A stretch of DNA of 28,075 nucleotides from the IMG/VR virus record IMGVR_UViG_3300020172_000358, positions 1 to 28,075 of that record; one strand, 5' to 3'. Each line of letters opens with the position of its first letter. The stretch's first letter is position 1. A program made the position numbers and the translations under genes. The notes below the pieces were generated by a model. That model searched no databases, was not told the origin of the DNA, and worked only from the letters and a program-made list of their open reading frames with translations. The DNA is from a virus. This document shows, one piece after another, positions 2,802 to 22,817 of this stretch.

Positions 2802-3307
2802 CGGTAGATTATAAAATAGACGCAATGTTCGAGCTTCGTAAATTTTTGTGGAAAGAATTAAAAGACGCTGGAATATTTGATCAGTATGACTACTATTCAG
2901 ATAATCTAGGAAGAGAAATAATTCCTATTATCCCAGTCCAGCAGTCACCAGAAATGGATCAATTCCTAAATGGCAAAAAACATATTGTGTACGACAAGAT
3001 CGGAATGTCATTTGAAGACATCTGGCTAATAGCCTGCGAGAAGGTCCTATTTACAATTTACTCAACAGACATCACAGAGGTCTACGAAATAAGAAACCTC
3101 ATGATGGATCTATTCCGCAGAATGGATGAGTCAGCCAGGGATGCTAATAATGCCAGAGATACAGATAAATTAATATTCCACAGCATTCATGTGGTCGAGA
3201 CATCACCCATAGAGCCTTCAGCAGAACTTCAGGGTTTTATATCCACAGATGTCATCCTAGAGGTCAAATATTCAAGGACCACCGATTCCAAGGGCAGATT
3301 CAACTAG
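2798..3307 (+). CDS. tail terminator protein candidate
   Basis: This 169-residue protein starts in an ATGA overlap with the previous gene (2798-2801), so the two are probably translationally coupled. It opens with a helix (IDAMFELRKFLWKELKDAG). The central part has WLIACEKVLFTIYSTDITEVYEIRNLMMDLFRRMDESA, a strand-then-helix arrangement seen in tail terminator (gpU/gp17-like) rings, and it ends with strands FISTDVILEVKYSR. Tail terminators cap the finished tail tube and attach it to the head. The position directly before the tail tube gene is where this protein is normally found. Identification relies on order, size and secondary-structure pattern. Confidence 0.6.
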   Translation: MTVDYKIDAMFELRKFLWKELKDAGIFDQYDYYSDNLGREIIPIIPVQQSPEMDQFLNGKKHIVYDKIGMSFEDIWLIACEKVLFTIYSTDITEVYEIRNLMMDLFRRMDESARDANNARDTDKLIFHSIHVVETSPIEPSAELQGFISTDVILEVKYSRTTDSKGRFN

Positions 3308-4975: not shown

Positions 4976-7900
4976 ATGGCAGATAATTTAATCACGACCA
5001 ATATTACCGCCCACGCAGACTTCACGAGTTTAAGAACTCAACTAGCTGCGGTTACTGCCCAACTCGTAAAATTACAAGAAACAACAGCGGGAACTAACGC
5101 TAAGCTTGCAAATCAAATTGCAGTAATGAACAAGTCGTTTGCAGAAACGATGCGTTCAACTGGCCAGTTCTCTTCACACTTTGTATCGCTATCTTCAGAC
5201 GTAGACAAGTTCGGCAAGAACTTAGATAGAGGCCGTTTAAAGCTCAACGATTACTATAATGCTTGGAACGGCCATACAAAGAAAACTAGCAACTTAATTA
5301 GAGATCTTGCAAAGCAGCAAGTAATGCTTCAGCAAGCAATAGTTCAGCCAGTTGGTAAAAATGCACAAGGCCTAATGCAGTACAACGTAATGGTTGCAAA
5401 AGGCTTAGATGAAGTAAAGAACAAGATGGCACTTGCTCGCCAAGAAGCAGCAATTATGAACAAGGTTATGCTTGATGGATCTAATCAGCTTATCAACTGG
5501 GGTAAGAATACACAGTGGGCTGGTCGTCAGTTAACTGTTGGTTTGACTGTACCGCTTGCAGCATTTGGAATGGCTGCACAAAAAGCATTTAGAGAAGCAG
5601 ATGCAGAGCTAGTAAGACTCACAAAAGTTTATGGCGGTCTTGCAGCCACATCTTCAGCAGACTTAGCCCAAGTTAGAAAAGACATAACTGCTACAGCAAA
5701 AGAGATTGCTAGCTCATACGGAGTTGCATACAAAGAAACAATTGCATTAGCAGCGGACCTTGCAGCAACTGGTCAGCAGGGAAATGATTTAATTCAAGCT
5801 ACTCAGCAAACAACAAGACTTGCAGTTCTTGGTGAAGTAGATAGACAAGATGCTATGAAAGCAACACTTGCTATTCAAAATGCATTTAAGCAAAATACAG
5901 AAGAGCTTACACAATCAATCGACTTTCTCAACGCAGTTGAAAACCAGACATCAACAAGCCTTGCAGATTTAACTGAAGCAATCCCTAAAGCGGGACCAGT
6001 AATCAAATCGCTTGGCGGAGATGTAAAAGATTTAGCACTTTACCTTACTGCCATGAAAGAGGGTGGAGTAAATGCTGCCGAAGGCGCTAACGCAATTAAG
6101 TCAGCAATGGCTTCTCTCATCAACCCAACTAAAGTTGCAACAGAACAGTTTGCAGGATTTGGAATTGATTTAAAAGGTATTGTAAATAGTAATGCTGGTG
6201 ATTTAACGGGAACCATTATGGCGTTACAAGCAGCGTTAGATAAACTAAACCCATTAGATAAGTCAAGAGCAATTGAGCAACTATTTGGCAAGTTCCAGTT
6301 TGCAAGAATGTCTGCACTATTTGAAAACTTAGGAAAGCAAGGATCGCAGACACTTCAAGTCATGGACTTAATGAAGGCAAGCGCAGTAGATCTTGCACAG
6401 ATATCTGAGCGAGAATTAAAGATGATGACAGAGTCAGCATCTGGACAATTTAAAAGAGCATGGGCATCAGTACAGGCAGACTTAGCACAAACAGGCGAGC
6501 AGTTCTTAAGAATAAGCACACAAGTATTAAAAGTTGTAGATTCAATTATCAAGTTCTTCCAGCACCTTCCAGGCCCAGTTAAAACATTCTTAAATGCATT
6601 GGGAGGCTTAACAGCAATTGCTGGTCCTCTCATTATGATGGCTGGTGTAATGGGTAACTTTATTGGATATGTAGTAAAAGGCATATTCCATTTAAGACAA
6701 CTTGCTAAAGGTGGACAAGGATTTAAGTTACTTACCCCAGAAATAATGGCTGCAGATGCAGCAGCAAAGGGATTAGCAACATCATTTTATTCGGACACGG
6801 AAGCTACAATTGTTTTATCAAATGCCGTAAACACATTAACACAATCTTTTAATAATCTTGAGCTTAAGGCAAACGCAGCAAAGGTTGCAGTGCAACCAGC
6901 AATTTCTACAGTAGCAGGTGGAGTAATTGCTGCTGGCGGAGCTGGACAAAGAATGGTAGATAAGAATAATCCATTAGTTGGTGATCCATATTCAAGAGAT
7001 ATGTCACACCTTATACCATCACAAAGCCAGCAGATGGGAACAATATTTGGAACAGTTCCTGGAGCAGGCCCAGTCAATGTAAGAATTGGAAAAAATCCAC
7101 AAGCATACATGAATCAAGATATGCCAAAGATTCCAGGTGTCACATCTATAAATGGAATATCTACTGGTATCGTTGCACAAGAGGCAGCAAAATGGCATGC
7201 AATGACAGCAGCAATAGCGATGCAGTCCGAAGCAGAAATCAAGATACTAAAGGCAGAAGTAACGGCAACTGGCACAGTCACATCCAGCCTAGCAGATTCT
7301 TATCAAGCATTACTACCACAATTTTCTGAAATAACACAATTAGCTGCTGCCGAAACAGAAGCAATAGTTGCACAGCTACAGGCTAGCAAGATAACCGTAG
7401 ATCAAGCAAGAGCAAAAGTTATGCAAATGAATGCGACAGTAGAGGCAATGCTTGCCGAAACTGCAGCAGCAACTGCAGCTGGTATGGGAAGAGTTGCAAA
7501 TCTAACTACAGTCCCATTGACATCACAACCAGTGGTAGACCCTTTAACTGGAAAATCAAACATGAAGGAAATGTTCCATAAAGGAACAACAAAAGATATT
7601 GTTGATAAGATTGCAAGATCACTAGGTGGAGTTAGAACATCAGGCGCAGGCTATAACATTCAAACAACAAAGCCTAAGTTTGCAAAGGGTGGTATTGTCC
7701 CAGGTACTGGCGACACAGACACATATCACACAACAGCAGAAGAGGGATCATTTGTAATTAACAAAGCTGGCACAGAAGCCAATATGCCAATAATTGAAAA
7801 TATTTTAGGCGGAAAGCCAGTATATAGAAATAATGGCGGTCAAGTTCCCGTTGTGTTGACACCAGGAGAGGCTGTCATTCCAGCAGATATTGCACAAAAA

Positions 7901-10900
7901 GATATGCCACTAATGCATGCATTAAATGGGGGGCCTGGAAATACATCTGGAATGGGAAGATCATCTGGTGGCGGAATTTCAATGAATATTTTTGAAGGGT
8001 TAAAGGCATGGCTTGAAAGAAACACAGACCCACAGTATGAGTCATCTTTAAAAAACAGAGTTGTGCTGCATGATTCAGCAGTATTAAATCATTTAGGATT
8101 TTCTGAAGACGAATCAATAAACATGGCAAAAAGAGATTTTGAAGAAGCAATTTTAAAGTCTACTGACTCTAAAACTGGAAAAGTAAATAGAGCAAAATAT
8201 AAGCAAATAAGAATTATGCAGGCAAGAGCGATGCAAGATTATATTGACATGCAGGGCATGGGAAGAACGGACAGTCGTGGCAACAAAGTTAACTATAGAG
8301 ACCTGCTTCGTCAAGACAAGCCAGAAGAATTATTACCTGGAAAAAGACCTCAAATTGCAGCAATTAAACCGACAAAAGCATTACTAGATACATTGATGTC
8401 AAGAATGGACATAGACCAGGTTAATTTACAGAGAGTATTAAATGGGTTTAAGCTTAGAGCGGATGGAACTATTGATTATGCGTCAGAGCACATGGATCCA
8501 GACCAAGATATGTTTACAAAAGAAAATGGTGTTACTAAAAGTAATAGAACTACTGGTAATGGATACAATGCACAAGCTGGAAGCAAAACTATAAACAGCT
8601 TTACAAACTGGCTACGTGCTATGACCCAGGGTAAATTTGAAGATAGAGTTCCATTAAATCAATCTACCGCACAAATATCAGCAGATACATTAGCAAAAGA
8701 ATTAAAATACGGTAAAGCTTCACAGCTTATAAAAAGACTGCCAGTAATTCAAAGAGGTCACATGATGACCGCAATGATGCGTATGCTCTTGACCAGAGGA
8801 AGATCTCTTCCACTAACAACGAAAATTACAGCAAATTCAGGCGGAGAAATTCCAGGACAGTTTGCACAAAGATTATTTGGCGGAGGAAAAGCATTGTTCC
8901 TTGGTATGCCTAAAACAATTAAGCAGGTAGAACAACAAAGAGCGATGAAAGCAGCAATGGAAAAGGCAGACATTGCAGTTAAAGATTCTAGATTTGCAAA
9001 GCATCCAGTAACAGAGTATGGAGATTTACTAGAGCCAACATCTGGAAGAAGCTTCCCAGTTCCTGGTATCGGTGGCGTATATACAAGAAACGGCGAAAAG
9101 GTTTTTGTTAAACCAATGCTTGATGAAAAGTCAGCACTTGCTGAAATGAGAGCAACACAAATTGCTCGTGAAGCACATGGACTAAAGGCTCCAAAACAAA
9201 GTCTCAATGTAATGCGTGATCCAACTGATCCAAAGGGATTGAGAAAGCTACTAGTTCTTGAATCACCATTCGATAAAGCCCTTACTGTGCAAGACGGTAA
9301 ATTTACTACAGATGAGTATTTCAGACAGCTTCTTGCATCATCTCTTCGTGGAGATAAAGATCTAGGAAGAGGGAATCTATCTGGAAATGTTTTGTCTGAT
9401 GTTGGGACTGCTGGAGTATTTTCAACAGCATCTGGGCTAAGAGACTATGCTGGATTCATGCCTTCAGTTGGAGACCAAGCAATGGTTAATTTACTTGGAA
9501 TTAAGGGAAGCGGAGCAAAGAAGTTCTTTGCTGAGTCTACAATGGACATTCCAAAGGGTATGACGCCAGACGCTTACAATTCAAGAATGCTTGAAGAAAT
9601 TGAAGCAACTCTGCCAAGACTCAAAAAAACTATTGGTAGCTTTGATCTAAATCAGCAAGAAAAAGTTGTCTATGCAAAAATGATTAAAAGACTTGAAGAT
9701 GCAAGAGAGGTAAAGTGGAGAGAGCTTCATGGAGTGCACTCCGCAGTAGTACCTTCAAAAGAAAGCAACCTTACACCAGCAGCATTGGCTAAGATTGCAG
9801 CAGCAGAAGAATTAAAGAGAAGACAGTCTGGACATATTGTTAGCCTATCGGATGCTGGATTTAAATCGTCAGCAAATGGATTTGCAATTGGCGGAATGAT
9901 TGGCAATGTATTAAAAGGTAAAGCAATGCATAGAATAGGTGCAGGATTTGGACCAACAGGTGCGCCAAAGCCAAGTATGTATGAGTCAGCGCCATGGGGT
10001 GTAAATTCATTGTCTATTGAAATGGCTAATACTTTGTTTGCAAATACTGGACTAAGAAAGCATACTCAAAAACTATTCTACGACAAGTTTGCAGCAGCTC
10101 TTGCAAAAGAAAAGCCTTACGGTTATGTTAAGGATGCAAAGGGATCTCTAAAGAATGCCCTAGAGCCAGACGTCCTAGACGCAGTAGTAAGATCAGCCGC
10201 ATCCGATTTGATTGGAGATAGGTCTGTATTAAAACAACTATCGCCAATAGATAAAGATATTTTAAGACAAAAGTATTTAAACTGGGAATCTAAAAAGGAT
10301 ACCCCACTTACAGAATCTTTAAAGAAGATTATATTTGGTCTAGAAGGAAGAGAAAAAGGCGGCCCAGTTAATGGAGGGCAGGCATATGTTGTTGGAGAAA
10401 AAGGACCTGAACTTTTTGTTCCTAGAGTTTCTGGCGGAATAGTTCCAAATAATAAATACGGAATTGGTGGACAGATTGCTGGTGGTATGGCAGTCGCAGC
10501 AGGAGCACAATTTATTGCTAGTAAGGTTGCAAACCCAATCATAGCTATGATAATCCAGCAAGTTGGTTTTATGTTGCCTATGATGATGCAGTCTGCTGCT
10601 ATGATGGGTGGCGGTGGCAAGGGCAAGTTGATGTCAAAAATACCTGCATCAATGAAGAGTCCAGTAGGAGTGTTCTCTGAAAAAACTGGTGGTTTAACTA
10701 AGTGGGGCGCAGGACTAGATAAATTAAATACTAGCGGGAAAATGCTTCCAGGGATTATTGGAAAAATTGGAATGGCTATGACAAGATTTAACCTAATAGC
10801 ATTCGCAACAGTCTCAGCAATAGGACTTACATTTAAAGCTTGGCAGGCTCAAAAAGAAAGCATGAGACTAAATGCACTAGGCTATGGAATGACAGCAGAG

Positions 10901-13321
10901 GCAGCAAAGAAGGCTGGGCTTAGATTTACCGACTTTAATAAGAAATTAAAAGAAACAGTAGCAGACGCACAGGCTGTTAAAGAAAGAAATCAAATGATGT
11001 ATGAGAGCATGACTACATCTGGGACACCATTAAAATTAACAATAGAGCAATACAAGAAGTTAAAGAAAGAAGTTAACTCTGTATATAAGGATCAAATAGC
11101 TCTTATTAATAAAACTGATTATGACGATCAAGCAGATCTTGCTATAAGATTAAAAGAGCAGCTAATGTCTATGGGGATGTCTGCAGAAGATGCAACAGCA
11201 AAAATTTATGCAATGTATAAAGCCTCTAATCAATCAAATAACACATCAGCTTTTACAACTTCATCTAAAGCCTTTATGAATATTAAAACTTCTGTTGATG
11301 CAGCCCGTGAAGCACTTAACACGTACAGCGATGCAGTTAGAAAAGATTTAGACCCAACTGAACAAGCAAATGCTCTTAACACTGCAGCAATGGGAATTGA
11401 CACTGCAATTGCAGATAAAGAATCTGAAGCAATGAAAGCACGTAAAAAAGATAAGAATAAGCCTTCATTTATTAGTACAGCCGAATCTGATTCAATTAAA
11501 TGGGATGCAGAAAAACAGGCGCTAGATGAGATATCAAGTAAGCTAGAAGGACAGAAAAGACTTAGCAAAGAAACACTTGATGAAATGGAAAAACAAAATC
11601 CTGCATTAAGAAAGATTGCCTCTGAGCAAGATACTGCGCTAACTCTTTGGAAAAAAACAAGAATTGAAGCAAGAGGATTTGTTGGAGATTTATCTGGTCT
11701 ATCTGCTGCACAAACAAATGCTCTGTATGCTTTGCAGAGCGCAGTAGCAAAAGGCGTTGAAACAACAAATAGAGGCGGAATACTAAAGACGCAATATGCT
11801 GCATTAGATAAACTTAAGGGATTGCAAGAAAAATATCAAAAAGCATTAAAAGGACAATCAGTAGCACAACAAATATCTGATAGAGATAGACTTGCTGCAA
11901 TTAACAAGCAAATTGATGCTAATAATAAATTAGCAGAGGCAAGAAAGAAAGCACTACAGGATAAAAAGAATGAACAAGATTCTGGAAGAGCAATTGAGGC
12001 TAAAAAACTTGAGCTTCAAAATGCAGAGGCTACTGGAAACACAGCTGGGGCACAGCAAGCAAGACTTGATCTTGAAGGCTTGGTTGCCACACAGCAGTAT
12101 GACGCACAGATTAAAGCCATTGATGAAGCAACAGAAAAAGCAAATGCTCCTCTTAAAAAAGCGGCAGAGGCTATGGCAAAGAAGCAGCAAGATCTTGGCG
12201 ATGCAGCCGCATACGCAGGAGAAAAGCTTGGCGATGTAACTAAAGAAATTGAAACTAATGAAGGTAAAATTGAAGCCTTAAATAAAGCCATGACTACATA
12301 TAGACTGGCCATTGAGATTCATAAGGATGACCTTAAGAAGTGGAAGACAACAGATGAAGCTAAGGGAATGCTTGCAGCAATTACTCAAGCAGCGACAGAT
12401 GCAAAAGTAGACATGTCTGGGCTTCCAAAAGATAAAGATGGAAATATTGGAATTGCAGCTGGGCAGGCCCTCTTCGATTCAGTATCATCTGGCCTTGAGG
12501 CATCTCTAAAAGAGCAAGGTATTGTTGTAAATGGTGATGTAATTATTAATGGCAAGAAAATAGATCTTGGTAACGCTGGCTCAAAGACAGCAACGCTGGC
12601 AGATCCTGGAAAAATTGCTGGAAAGAAAACTGGAACTGGGGACTCAACTAAATACTTTACTCAATCTGGAAAAGAAGTAAGTAAAAAAGAATACGACTCC
12701 ATGCCAGTAGGCGCACCTTCACAAGGCCAGTCCTATATAATTCCAGATAGCAAGTTAAGCGGTAAAGAATTTGCTAACAGAGATGCAGCAACAAGAGCAT
12801 TTTATAAGGCTCATAAAACTTCTTGGAAACAAGGTGATATGACATACTATTCCAACGGAATGGTAATGCAAGACGGAAAAGTAATTGGTTCATGGCTTGC
12901 AGCAATGGGAGATCAAAGCGGAAGAGTTAAGTCTTATAAAGATGGCGGTTTACTTTCTGGACCAGGAACTGGTACATCTGATTCTATTTATATGCCAATG
13001 ATGCCAAGCGGTAAATATGCTTCTGGCGCATATGTTTCAAATGGAGAATTTGTTGTAAATGCTCAAGCAGTCAGACAGCCAGGGATACTTCCACTTCTTG
13101 AAAGAATTAATAATATGCAGTATTCTGTACCGCAATCTAATTTCCAGGCAGCAGCATTTAATGTTGGATCAGGAAGCACAATTAATCTAACACAAAACAT
13201 TTATCCATCTGACGGAATGAACACAGATACATTTGTAAGACAGGTTGTCTCTATGACAAAACAAGCTATTGGACAAGATGCAAAGCTTAATGCTAAAATG
13301 ATAGGAACAAAGAGGACATAA
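4976..13321 (+). CDS. tail tape measure protein, 2781 residues
   Basis: The longest gene of the window sits directly after the tail chaperones. The N-terminal part is coiled coil. Residues about 165-460 resemble the TP901-type tape measure core (KVYGGLAATSSADLAQVRKD, LADLTEAIPKAGPVIKSLGG, then an FGK-containing helix). Hydrophobic segments lie near 542-571, 1835-1880 and 1925-1955. Short GG(x)VPG-type motifs recur near 905, 954, 1289, 1639, 1795 and 2657. Residues about 1360-1560 look like an embedded kinase-like domain. Residues about 2230-2480 form a long charged coiled coil. No peptidoglycan hydrolase motif is seen. At about 0.15 nm per residue the tail would approach 400 nm, less if the globular parts do not count. 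The TAA stop overlaps the next ATG by one base. Confidence 0.93.
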   Translation: MADNLITTNITAHADFTSLRTQLAAVTAQLVKLQETTAGTNAKLANQIAVMNKSFAETMRSTGQFSSHFVSLSSDVDKFGKNLDRGRLKLNDYYNAWNGHTKKTSNLIRDLAKQQVMLQQAIVQPVGKNAQGLMQYNVMVAKGLDEVKNKMALARQEAAIMNKVMLDGSNQLINWGKNTQWAGRQLTVGLTVPLAAFGMAAQKAFREADAELVRLTKVYGGLAATSSADLAQVRKDITATAKEIASSYGVAYKETIALAADLAATGQQGNDLIQATQQTTRLAVLGEVDRQDAMKATLAIQNAFKQNTEELTQSIDFLNAVENQTSTSLADLTEAIPKAGPVIKSLGGDVKDLALYLTAMKEGGVNAAEGANAIKSAMASLINPTKVATEQFAGFGIDLKGIVNSNAGDLTGTIMALQAALDKLNPLDKSRAIEQLFGKFQFARMSALFENLGKQGSQTLQVMDLMKASAVDLAQISERELKMMTESASGQFKRAWASVQADLAQTGEQFLRISTQVLKVVDSIIKFFQHLPGPVKTFLNALGGLTAIAGPLIMMAGVMGNFIGYVVKGIFHLRQLAKGGQGFKLLTPEIMAADAAAKGLATSFYSDTEATIVLSNAVNTLTQSFNNLELKANAAKVAVQPAISTVAGGVIAAGGAGQRMVDKNNPLVGDPYSRDMSHLIPSQSQQMGTIFGTVPGAGPVNVRIGKNPQAYMNQDMPKIPGVTSINGISTGIVAQEAAKWHAMTAAIAMQSEAEIKILKAEVTATGTVTSSLADSYQALLPQFSEITQLAAAETEAIVAQLQASKITVDQARAKVMQMNATVEAMLAETAAATAAGMGRVANLTTVPLTSQPVVDPLTGKSNMKEMFHKGTTKDIVDKIARSLGGVRTSGAGYNIQTTKPKFAKGGIVPGTGDTDTYHTTAEEGSFVINKAGTEANMPIIENILGGKPVYRNNGGQVPVVLTPGEAVIPADIAQKDMPLMHALNGGPGNTSGMGRSSGGGISMNIFEGLKAWLERNTDPQYESSLKNRVVLHDSAVLNHLGFSEDESINMAKRDFEEAILKSTDSKTGKVNRAKYKQIRIMQARAMQDYIDMQGMGRTDSRGNKVNYRDLLRQDKPEELLPGKRPQIAAIKPTKALLDTLMSRMDIDQVNLQRVLNGFKLRADGTIDYASEHMDPDQDMFTKENGVTKSNRTTGNGYNAQAGSKTINSFTNWLRAMTQGKFEDRVPLNQSTAQISADTLAKELKYGKASQLIKRLPVIQRGHMMTAMMRMLLTRGRSLPLTTKITANSGGEIPGQFAQRLFGGGKALFLGMPKTIKQVEQQRAMKAAMEKADIAVKDSRFAKHPVTEYGDLLEPTSGRSFPVPGIGGVYTRNGEKVFVKPMLDEKSALAEMRATQIAREAHGLKAPKQSLNVMRDPTDPKGLRKLLVLESPFDKALTVQDGKFTTDEYFRQLLASSLRGDKDLGRGNLSGNVLSDVGTAGVFSTASGLRDYAGFMPSVGDQAMVNLLGIKGSGAKKFFAESTMDIPKGMTPDAYNSRMLEEIEATLPRLKKTIGSFDLNQQEKVVYAKMIKRLEDAREVKWRELHGVHSAVVPSKESNLTPAALAKIAAAEELKRRQSGHIVSLSDAGFKSSANGFAIGGMIGNVLKGKAMHRIGAGFGPTGAPKPSMYESAPWGVNSLSIEMANTLFANTGLRKHTQKLFYDKFAAALAKEKPYGYVKDAKGSLKNALEPDVLDAVVRSAASDLIGDRSVLKQLSPIDKDILRQKYLNWESKKDTPLTESLKKIIFGLEGREKGGPVNGGQAYVVGEKGPELFVPRVSGGIVPNNKYGIGGQIAGGMAVAAGAQFIASKVANPIIAMIIQQVGFMLPMMMQSAAMMGGGGKGKLMSKIPASMKSPVGVFSEKTGGLTKWGAGLDKLNTSGKMLPGIIGKIGMAMTRFNLIAFATVSAIGLTFKAWQAQKESMRLNALGYGMTAEAAKKAGLRFTDFNKKLKETVADAQAVKERNQMMYESMTTSGTPLKLTIEQYKKLKKEVNSVYKDQIALINKTDYDDQADLAIRLKEQLMSMGMSAEDATAKIYAMYKASNQSNNTSAFTTSSKAFMNIKTSVDAAREALNTYSDAVRKDLDPTEQANALNTAAMGIDTAIADKESEAMKARKKDKNKPSFISTAESDSIKWDAEKQALDEISSKLEGQKRLSKETLDEMEKQNPALRKIASEQDTALTLWKKTRIEARGFVGDLSGLSAAQTNALYALQSAVAKGVETTNRGGILKTQYAALDKLKGLQEKYQKALKGQSVAQQISDRDRLAAINKQIDANNKLAEARKKALQDKKNEQDSGRAIEAKKLELQNAEATGNTAGAQQARLDLEGLVATQQYDAQIKAIDEATEKANAPLKKAAEAMAKKQQDLGDAAAYAGEKLGDVTKEIETNEGKIEALNKAMTTYRLAIEIHKDDLKKWKTTDEAKGMLAAITQAATDAKVDMSGLPKDKDGNIGIAAGQALFDSVSSGLEASLKEQGIVVNGDVIINGKKIDLGNAGSKTATLADPGKIAGKKTGTGDSTKYFTQSGKEVSKKEYDSMPVGAPSQGQSYIIPDSKLSGKEFANRDAATRAFYKAHKTSWKQGDMTYYSNGMVMQDGKVIGSWLAAMGDQSGRVKSYKDGGLLSGPGTGTSDSIYMPMMPSGKYASGAYVSNGEFVVNAQAVRQPGILPLLERINNMQYSVPQSNFQAAAFNVGSGSTINLTQNIYPSDGMNTDTFVRQVVSMTKQAIGQDAKLNAKMIGTKRT

Positions 13322-22016: not shown

Positions 22017-22817
22017 ATGAGTAACGATTTAAAGTGGATGATTTCATCCGACCAGCAGTTCCCATATCAGGATGATAAAATGATTGCACTTTGGTTTAAG
22101 GTGATGAAGTGGTTTAAGCCAGATGTCGTTGACTACCTTGGTGACACAGATGATCAGGCTTGCTACAGCAAATATACAGAAGGTCGATCAGCAGAGTTTT
22201 TAAACCTTCATAAAACAGATAGCAGGGATCTTATTGTTCCAATGATGCGTCATGAAGCAAAAGGCGCAAGAGATTTTTATGCAAAGACAAGAGATATGCT
22301 ACCAGATGCTCAATTGTTTTCAGCGCTTGGTAATCATGATGTAAGAATCTTTAATTATGTCGATGCAAAACTTCCAGACTACATAAATGAAGTAACACCA
22401 GAAGCTTTATGGGGACTTGACTCACTAGGATATGAATATATTCACTATAACGAATTGCCAAAGCGACGCTTTGGAGATATTCACGTACACCATGGACTCT
22501 CTATTGCAGCAACTGGATCTGTTCGTAAAGACATGGAAGACCTTCAGATTTCATTGATTAGAGGACACTCGCATAGAATTGCCTCACACCTAGTTACTTA
22601 TGAACTAAGAAATAATGGTGAGGGAGAAACGATTCGTGGCTACGAGCTTGGGCATATGTGTGATGAGAAGGGCCCAGGAATGAAGTATATGCAACACCAT
22701 GACTGGCAAAAGGGATTTGCAATTGCTCACATTGTTAACGACTACCCGCATATTCAGATGATCCATGTGGCTCCTGACTATTCATGTGTTGTTGACGGGA
22801 AGTTGTTTACACTATAA
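22017..22817 (+). CDS. calcineurin-like metallophosphoesterase
   Basis: This 266-residue protein carries the metal-binding motifs of the family in order: SSDQQ (D12, Q14, in place of the usual DxH), LGDTDD (41-46), ALGNHD (about 103-108), HVHHG (156-160) and RGHSHR (182-187). These residues bind two metal ions and hydrolyse phosphate esters; phage members act as nucleases or nucleotide phosphatases. There is no signal peptide, so it acts in the cytoplasm. It is the first gene of the replication operon, which suggests a role in DNA processing or nucleotide recycling. Start supported by AAGG 6 nt upstream. The substrate cannot be told from sequence. Confidence 0.85.
   Translation: MSNDLKWMISSDQQFPYQDDKMIALWFKVMKWFKPDVVDYLGDTDDQACYSKYTEGRSAEFLNLHKTDSRDLIVPMMRHEAKGARDFYAKTRDMLPDAQLFSALGNHDVRIFNYVDAKLPDYINEVTPEALWGLDSLGYEYIHYNELPKRRFGDIHVHHGLSIAATGSVRKDMEDLQISLIRGHSHRIASHLVTYELRNNGEGETIRGYELGHMCDEKGPGMKYMQHHDWQKGFAIAHIVNDYPHIQMIHVAPDYSCVVDGKLFTL

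Follow-up and report, generated by a model that had tools for sequence, protein, structure and literature searches.

A predicted atypical-kinase fold carried as an exchangeable cassette in a phage tape measure protein

The tape measure protein (TMP) encoded by a virus record of 28075 bases, the whole of which is termed the window here, contains a discrete domain at residues ~1305–1600 (positions 8888–9775, plus strand). Structural modelling indicates, with very little doubt, that these residues have a kinase fold. The fuller reading, in which an enzyme cassette with an atypical kinase fold resides in the TMP, is active and is delivered into the host, is one to which we give about an even chance.

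The tape measure protein and its modules

The gene at positions 4976–13321 (plus strand, as are the TMP features given below) encodes a protein of 2781 amino acids. Pfam PhageMin_Tail matches the product (E 3.4e-26), as does the PHROG family for tail length tape measure proteins (E 2.8e-116), and several PHROG TMP families match it as well. The gene is flanked by an Ig-domain protein gene upstream and a minor tail protein gene downstream. By both profile and place among tail genes, the product is a phage TMP. Residues 1–975 match 286 phage records, all at less than 60% identity. Phages of Streptomyces (127) and Gordonia (105) make up most of these, and we infer that the host of the window phage is actinobacterial.

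An alignment of 15 TMPs, i.e. that of the window and 14 relatives, one of which is identical to the window across the domain, reveals a conserved core at residues 1–1000, a hypervariable region at ~1001–1285 and a further conserved region at ~1300–1830. The hypervariable module neighbours the kinase-fold domain and is delimited by alignment and dN/dS to residues ~1006–1288 (positions 7991–8839). It displays 19–29% identity in four of seven pairs of otherwise close relatives, and judging from these comparisons it is possibly another swapped cargo. The module that follows the domain (residues ~1640–1830, positions 9893–10465) is conserved and helical-looking, and it is retained in the TMP of a relative, L224, where the cassette described below is missing. 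It has a partial match to phrog_30701, a family of unknown function (residues 1778–1829, E 3.5e-11). Linkers of the type GG...P...GEAVI/GEFVV are repeated in the TMPs. They are found in the window at positions 7763–7990 and about 12896–13135, and in the TMP of L101 at residues ~667–720 and ~1020–1075, where they flank the kinase domain on both sides; they are possibly recombination or hinge points. Elsewhere, the window has a metallophosphoesterase gene at positions 22017–22817 (phrog_221, E 3.1e-52).

Predicted structure of the domain

The initial annotation had proposed that a stretch of the TMP resembles an atypical kinase and not a coiled coil. The AlphaFold2 (AF2) model, with a pLDDT of 85, and its matches to atypical-kinase structures agree. 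The location given, residues ~1360–1560 (positions 9045–9660), was right and the size was not: the confident part of the model, the conserved block and the fold matches delimit the larger domain given above. AF2 was run on 51 distinct sequences (pTM 0.83; the pLDDT of the five models spans 79.7–85.0), and it is this model that was used in the fold searches; a run with only 15 close sequences gave a poor model with a pLDDT of 55.

The predicted structure is two-lobed and protein-kinase-like, having a five-strand N-lobe with one helix, and a helical C-lobe. N-lobe elements include strands at residues 1367–1371, 1374–1381, 1409–1414 and 1424–1431 and a helix at 1384–1399; a helix at 1445–1458 precedes the helical C-lobe. 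The motifs and residue numbers in the initial annotation all proved exact when rechecked against the TMP sequence, and the strands and helix it placed are seen in the model. K1379, said to lie on a strand, is in strand 1374–1381, and E1390, placed in a helix, is in helix 1384–1399. The motif KLLVLESPFD had been likened to a hinge, and strand 1424–1431 indeed leads to a hinge-like ES. Two outcomes had been named as counting against a kinase: a confident model without the kinase fold, and the lack of any kinase-clan profile match in a domain for which another fold is found. The confident model has a kinase fold, whereas no kinase-clan profile matches.

With VIA-align, 999 candidate chains from Foldseek were realigned, and the 50 best rows were listed. 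All 50 are kinases or kinase-like proteins, among them LepB and CylM, which we take to be kinase-like, and 18 chains have a Z of at least 8. CotH is the best solved-structure match among the rows listed, with Z values of 11.9 (5jd9) and 11.6 (5jda) over 215–218 residues. It is followed by CtkA (10.5 and 10.2), PI4KIIa (9.9), MavQ (9.8), PI4KIIb (9.7), HipA of Shewanella (9.2) and of E. coli (8.8), LepB (8.7) and VPS34 (8.2), and lower rows include actin-fragmin kinase and classical protein kinases. A best Z of 7–8 is frequent with VIA-align where there is no true relative, and the top values here are above that. CotH leads, yet rows of related kinases are within 1–3 Z of it.

Foldseek itself is less decisive. 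None of 676 matches in the PDB has an E value of 0.001 or below; the best is 2.1e-3, and TM-scores are 0.2–0.4 among the matches listed, with a probability of 0.98 for CtkA (3akl_C). A viral library gave two of 231 matches at E ≤ 0.001, one of which is unnamed; the other is named as a PI3-/4-kinase catalytic domain of an uncultured phage (E 1.7e-4). A 1479-aa protein of phage GodonK is in the same library's matches with a probability of 0.92. Taken together, the model comparisons suggest that the fold is nearest to CotH, CtkA, PI4K-II and HipA, all atypical kinases; PI4K-II and HipA had already been named in the initial annotation.

Candidate active-site residues

Residue conservation was determined in 68 distinct domain sequences (alignment A4 plus further relatives, with contained sequences removed). 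The candidate ATP-binding Lys, K1379 (9110–9112), is kept in all 68, and the candidate helix-C Glu, E1390 (9143–9145), in 67, the exception being a Gln in L267. The predicted catalytic loop, R-x-D-K-D-L-x-x-x-N, encompasses residues 1458–1467 (9347–9376). Its putative catalytic base, D1462, and putative metal ligand, N1467, are both present in 68/68 sequences; D1460 is also invariant, and K1461 is found in 65, with three having Arg. Thus, the kinase set of Lys, helix Glu, Asp-x4-Asn and DxG is present in 67–68 of the 68 sequences. There are ~69 invariant columns in all across these sequences, and therefore invariance alone is no proof of function.

Five of the six residues singled out at the outset, K1379, E1390, D1460, D1462 and N1467, are thus conserved; N1471 is less so, and with conservation in just 47 of 68 it was rejected as a catalytic or metal-binding residue. 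The initial annotation was also unsure of the metal-binding Asp after the loop. A candidate now exists in D1475-V-G1477 (9398–9406), where both Asp and Gly are kept in 68/68 sequences. On the alignment and the model, D1475 is probably the metal-binding Asp and D1475-x-G1477 the DFG equivalent; it should be pointed out that this assignment was made after the alignment was seen. Position 1483 was considered for the same role and rejected, as it is Asp in only seven of 51 sequences. The model has two short strands, 1468–1469 and 1472–1473, between N1467 and D1475, and because of these D1475 would follow a very short hairpin directly after N1467. The N1467–D1475 spacing is eight residues; the corresponding spacing in PKA is 13, and eight is shorter than in typical kinases. 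From the model and the conserved residues, it is likely that the domain is an active phosphotransferase.

Sequence searches

Sequence profiles provide no family name. None of the 51 members has a kinase profile match over the domain in Pfam, NCBIfam or PHROGs; phrog_36835, whose function is unknown, has a weak match over the K1379 strand in 10 of the 51 (best E 0.077). The 12 Pfam families matched at E ≤ 1 by any member do not include CotH or PI3/PI4 kinase. HipA_C (PF07804) and Kinase-PolyVal (PF18762) have no match in the window record and are absent from the Pfam matches of the 51 members; in control searches of 14 genomes, HipA_C matched in four and Kinase-PolyVal in none. With phmmer, the domain has no significant match in the PDB (best E 1.1), and its profile finds no kinase there, the best hit being a lectin (E 0.094). 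An hhalign comparison with the single E. coli HipA sequence is at chance level. No relatives were found by tblastn of GenBank phages with two domain representatives, nor in two scans of genome contigs; scans by pattern (at least 80 loci each in two scans) reach only those relatives that retain the chosen peptides, and more distant ones may exist. Pfam, NCBIfam and PHROGs thus leave a long conserved block of the TMP blank, and a kinase fold is its likely identity.

An exchangeable cassette

The cassette spans residues ~1305–1638 (8888–9889), with borders set by eye at the L224 junction. The L224 TMP is 85% identical to that of the window over residues 1–1004, has nothing that matches window residues 1325–1607 (the BLAST gap), and then resumes with the next module. 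More broadly, among the best 80 of 592 candidate loci, which were picked by TMP core and may include near-duplicates, 55 encode the whole TMP frame; the domain is present in 32 of those frames and missing from 23.

The domain is also found at other positions. In a second TMP lineage, that of L101, the same domain, ~305 residues long, is at residues ~703–1020 in most complete frames, at 1211–1515 in L115 and at 1197–1494 in L118. Two copies of a PGPKGAGD...SPGEAVIPA linker bracket it, by eye, in L101. Five members of this lineage have TMP cores that are 34–38% identical to that of the window, and the domain is 48–51% identical in four of them; in L115 it falls within a longer alignment at 40% identity. 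Presence, absence and relocation between TMPs, as seen in these sequences, suggest that the block is an exchangeable cassette in mid-TMP.

The domain is under purifying selection. Nei–Gojobori dN/dS for seven pairs is 0.044–0.105 for the domain and 0.022–0.139 for the TMP core. The variable module has values of 0.21–0.85 in six of the seven pairs and 0.034 in the pair L015–L020. These are rough values, given the high dS in many pairs and the poor alignment of the variable module.

N-lobe similarity to other phage proteins

Gordonia phage GodonK encodes a protein, gp67 (L195, positions 26522–30961), with a kinase-like domain that is unannotated and has no Pfam name. The gp67 gene directly follows the portal gene in GodonK, and members of the family adjoin portal in three Gordonia phages. 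By eye, gp67 has the motif order of the window domain; hmmsearch with the window-domain profile did not find it. A tblastn search with gp67 gave 19 records, and in eight of these only query residues ~101–319 match. The eight are phages of Yersinia, Morganella, Enterobacter, Pseudomonas (three) and Aeromonas and one Dishui Lake phage. Seven of the eight were examined; several of them bear an ADP-ribosyltransferase annotation, and one has the remark ‘phage particle associated protein’. The gp67-type kinase-like domain is thus also seen in phage ADP-ribosyltransferase proteins (L198–L206); of four such proteins scanned, the Pfam ADP-ribosyltransferase domain is above cut-off in two and below it in a third.

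Alignment of ten gp67-type sequences with the 51-sequence window family by hhalign gave a score of 30.9 (P 0.0017, probability 15%), and with the 68-sequence alignment 34.7 (P 0.0005, probability 32%). The highest control scores were 21.4 among 50 column shuffles of the 51-sequence alignment and 19.2 among 12 TMP windows from outside the module; the reversed alignment gave 12.7. Four TMP windows overlap the module: the two that bear the N-lobe scored 25.0 and 25.6, and the two free of it 13.9 and 16.6. The latter, which hold only catalytic loop and C-lobe (1396–1705 and 1551–1860), show no similarity to the gp67-type family in hhalign. Confidence is confined to the N-lobe, in which the glycine-rich turn, Lys and Glu align. 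In the low-confidence part, D1475 aligns with the Asp of RVDxGG in both runs, and D1462 with NWD and N1467 with DN in the 51-sequence run only. The ten gp67-type sequences have no profile match to a solved kinase. GodonK gp67 and the L198–L206 proteins are therefore like the window domain in their N-lobe similarity and in being phage proteins, one of them annotated as particle-associated; they differ in that the carriers are not TMPs and the catalytic-loop alignment is of low confidence.

Other cargo in sibling TMPs

In the 4210-aa TMP of L023 (L023:951–13580), Pfam finds an OmpA domain (E 1.7e-18); a second stretch that is kinase-like, with the motif GHGDMHPGN...FDWG, lies at residues ~3000–3280 of this TMP, and its residues 2711–2804 were also flagged. 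Pfam matches of the kinase-like stretch to ABC1 (E 0.005) and APH (E 0.019) are weak and below cut-off, and a PDB search found kinases only at E 0.4–0.6. Long sibling TMPs noted together with L023 for these features are those of L020, L214, L216, L220 and L229. The GHGDMHPGN...FDWG motif is in four of the best 80 of 592 candidate loci. A different stretch, with HRG, SxST and ESEV, is in five of the same 80 TMPs (L231, L232, L258, L259 and L261), and we take it, by eye, to be ADP-ribosyltransferase-like. It occupies the TMP slot at residues ~1450–1620, and the kinase cassette is absent from all five TMPs. The motif has no match in Pfam (L231 and L258) or the PDB (L231).

Other kinase-lacking TMPs that were scanned (L224, L284, L274 and L286) show no Pfam enzyme domain, and so the notion of a cargo slot rests on few cases. 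Perhaps the TMP serves many uncultured phages, a large and probably actinobacterial group, as a polymorphic effector cartridge, i.e. a fixed ruler core with a slot that exchanges host-modifying enzymes (kinase, APH/ABC1-like kinase, ADP-ribosyltransferase), which would be among the first proteins to enter the host and would modify it at DNA ejection. As the evidence for other cargo consists of a few, partly by-eye cases, this broader view is a tentative one that falls somewhat short of an even chance.

Proposed function and alternatives

In the proposed mechanism, K1379, N1467 and D1475 would hold ATP-Mg, with D1462 as catalytic base. The most economical reading is that the enzyme domain travels as part of the TMP. 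It would exit the tail tube with the TMP during DNA ejection, unfolded or pliable in the lumen, and refold at the membrane of the host or within its cytoplasm. There it would phosphorylate a host protein, or less likely a lipid, ahead of phage gene expression. Virion-delivered T4 Alt and the T7 kinase are precedents for early host modification; the available portions of PMC7824862, PMC5512222 and PMC8008677 name them in part. We lean slightly towards delivery into, and action within, the host, and favour a protein over a lipid as the substrate somewhat more readily; the scores of PI4K-like folds are close behind, which makes a lipid target possible.

The alternative that survives best, although unlikely, is a pseudokinase, where the role of the kinase-like fold, whether in the tail or at the host membrane, is that of a spacer or binding platform. 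The short N1467–D1475 spacing and the lack of a sequence-profile match to kinases would fit such a role. Pseudokinases usually lose some of the Lys, catalytic Asp, Asn and DxG, but here every one of the 68 distinct sequences retains all of these, and a needed spacer is ill-suited to a block that is present or absent in otherwise similar TMPs. An active kinase could also work in the producing cell or in tail assembly, for instance on tail or host proteins late in infection, and not after injection. The TMP is a tail structural protein, which is in keeping with this. We nevertheless consider it rather improbable, since carriers of the related domain include a particle-associated protein and since TMPs are ejected, according to the portions available of two reports (PMC11126660, PMC13277306).

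A kinase-fold enzyme of other chemistry is more doubtful still. Some kinase-fold proteins catalyse AMPylation, glutamylation or lipid phosphorylation, and here the scores of PI4K-like and lipid-kinase folds nearly equal those of protein kinases. Nothing specific speaks against such a chemistry, which we nevertheless regard as improbable for this domain. That the model is wrong and the domain has another alpha/beta fold is very improbable: the lack of a profile match and PDB Foldseek E values above 1e-3 are set against a confident AF2 model, a homogeneous list of kinase matches and the conservation of residues that had been named beforehand.

Relation to known systems

CotH (5jd9, 5jda) is the best structural match to the window domain, but at 9–10% identity, and it differs in that the window domain sits in a TMP and has no Pfam kinase match in 51 members. 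CtkA, PI4K-II, MavQ and HipA resemble the domain in fold (Z 8.7–10.5), lobe order and Asp-x4-Asn loop (D309 and N314 in HipA); they differ in having 10–15% identity to it, and the HipA_C profile is without a match in the record.

Kinase domains have been described in polyvalent proteins, large phage proteins that are believed to enter the host along with the DNA (Iyer et al. 2017, PMC5512222). These are reported, in the available portion of that paper, to be without the whole C-terminal subdomain, whereas the window domain keeps a predicted helical C-lobe; tape measure proteins are mentioned 0 times in the same portion. In Gratiaviridae, a HipA-family kinase with a proposed role in superinfection immunity is encoded between the portal and capsid genes, according to the accessible text of PMC8008677, which also notes phage kinase domains of the CotH family. 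The Gratiaviridae kinase shares with the window domain a HipA-related fold and a structural-gene setting but is not in a TMP. A precedent for a TMP-related carrier is given by the effectors Tme and Sle1, which belong to contractile injection systems of Streptomyces, have an exchangeable domain and are loaded and ejected (PMC11126660, PMC13277306, as far as the text available extends). They resemble the window TMP as TMP-like carriers of an exchangeable functional domain in a tail-like particle; they differ in that the domains are endonuclease or other C-terminal domains and the systems are bacterial. PMC13277306 has no instance of the word ‘kinase’, and PMC11126660 a single one.

No report of a kinase inside a phage TMP was found in the open-licence literature searched, within the text available, and a kinase within a TMP is not described in the accessible portions of PMC8876498, PMC7824862, PMC8008677, PMC5512222, PMC10684548, PMC9341999, PMC6102473, PMC11126660, PMC10611076 or PMC13277306. 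Earlier work thus already describes kinase domains of large phage proteins located near the head, as it does exchangeable domains in TMP-related effectors of injection systems; what would be new, if the model holds, is the TMP as carrier of a kinase-fold effector that travels with the virion.

Significance

The cassette, if active, would offer a natural case for studying the passage of a folded enzyme of ~300 residues through a tail tube. An active domain would also mean that the ruler protein, on leaving the tail with the ejected DNA, reprograms the host ahead of all phage gene expression. Phages of this kind may, as the model suggests, have a host-modifying enzyme within their own tail.
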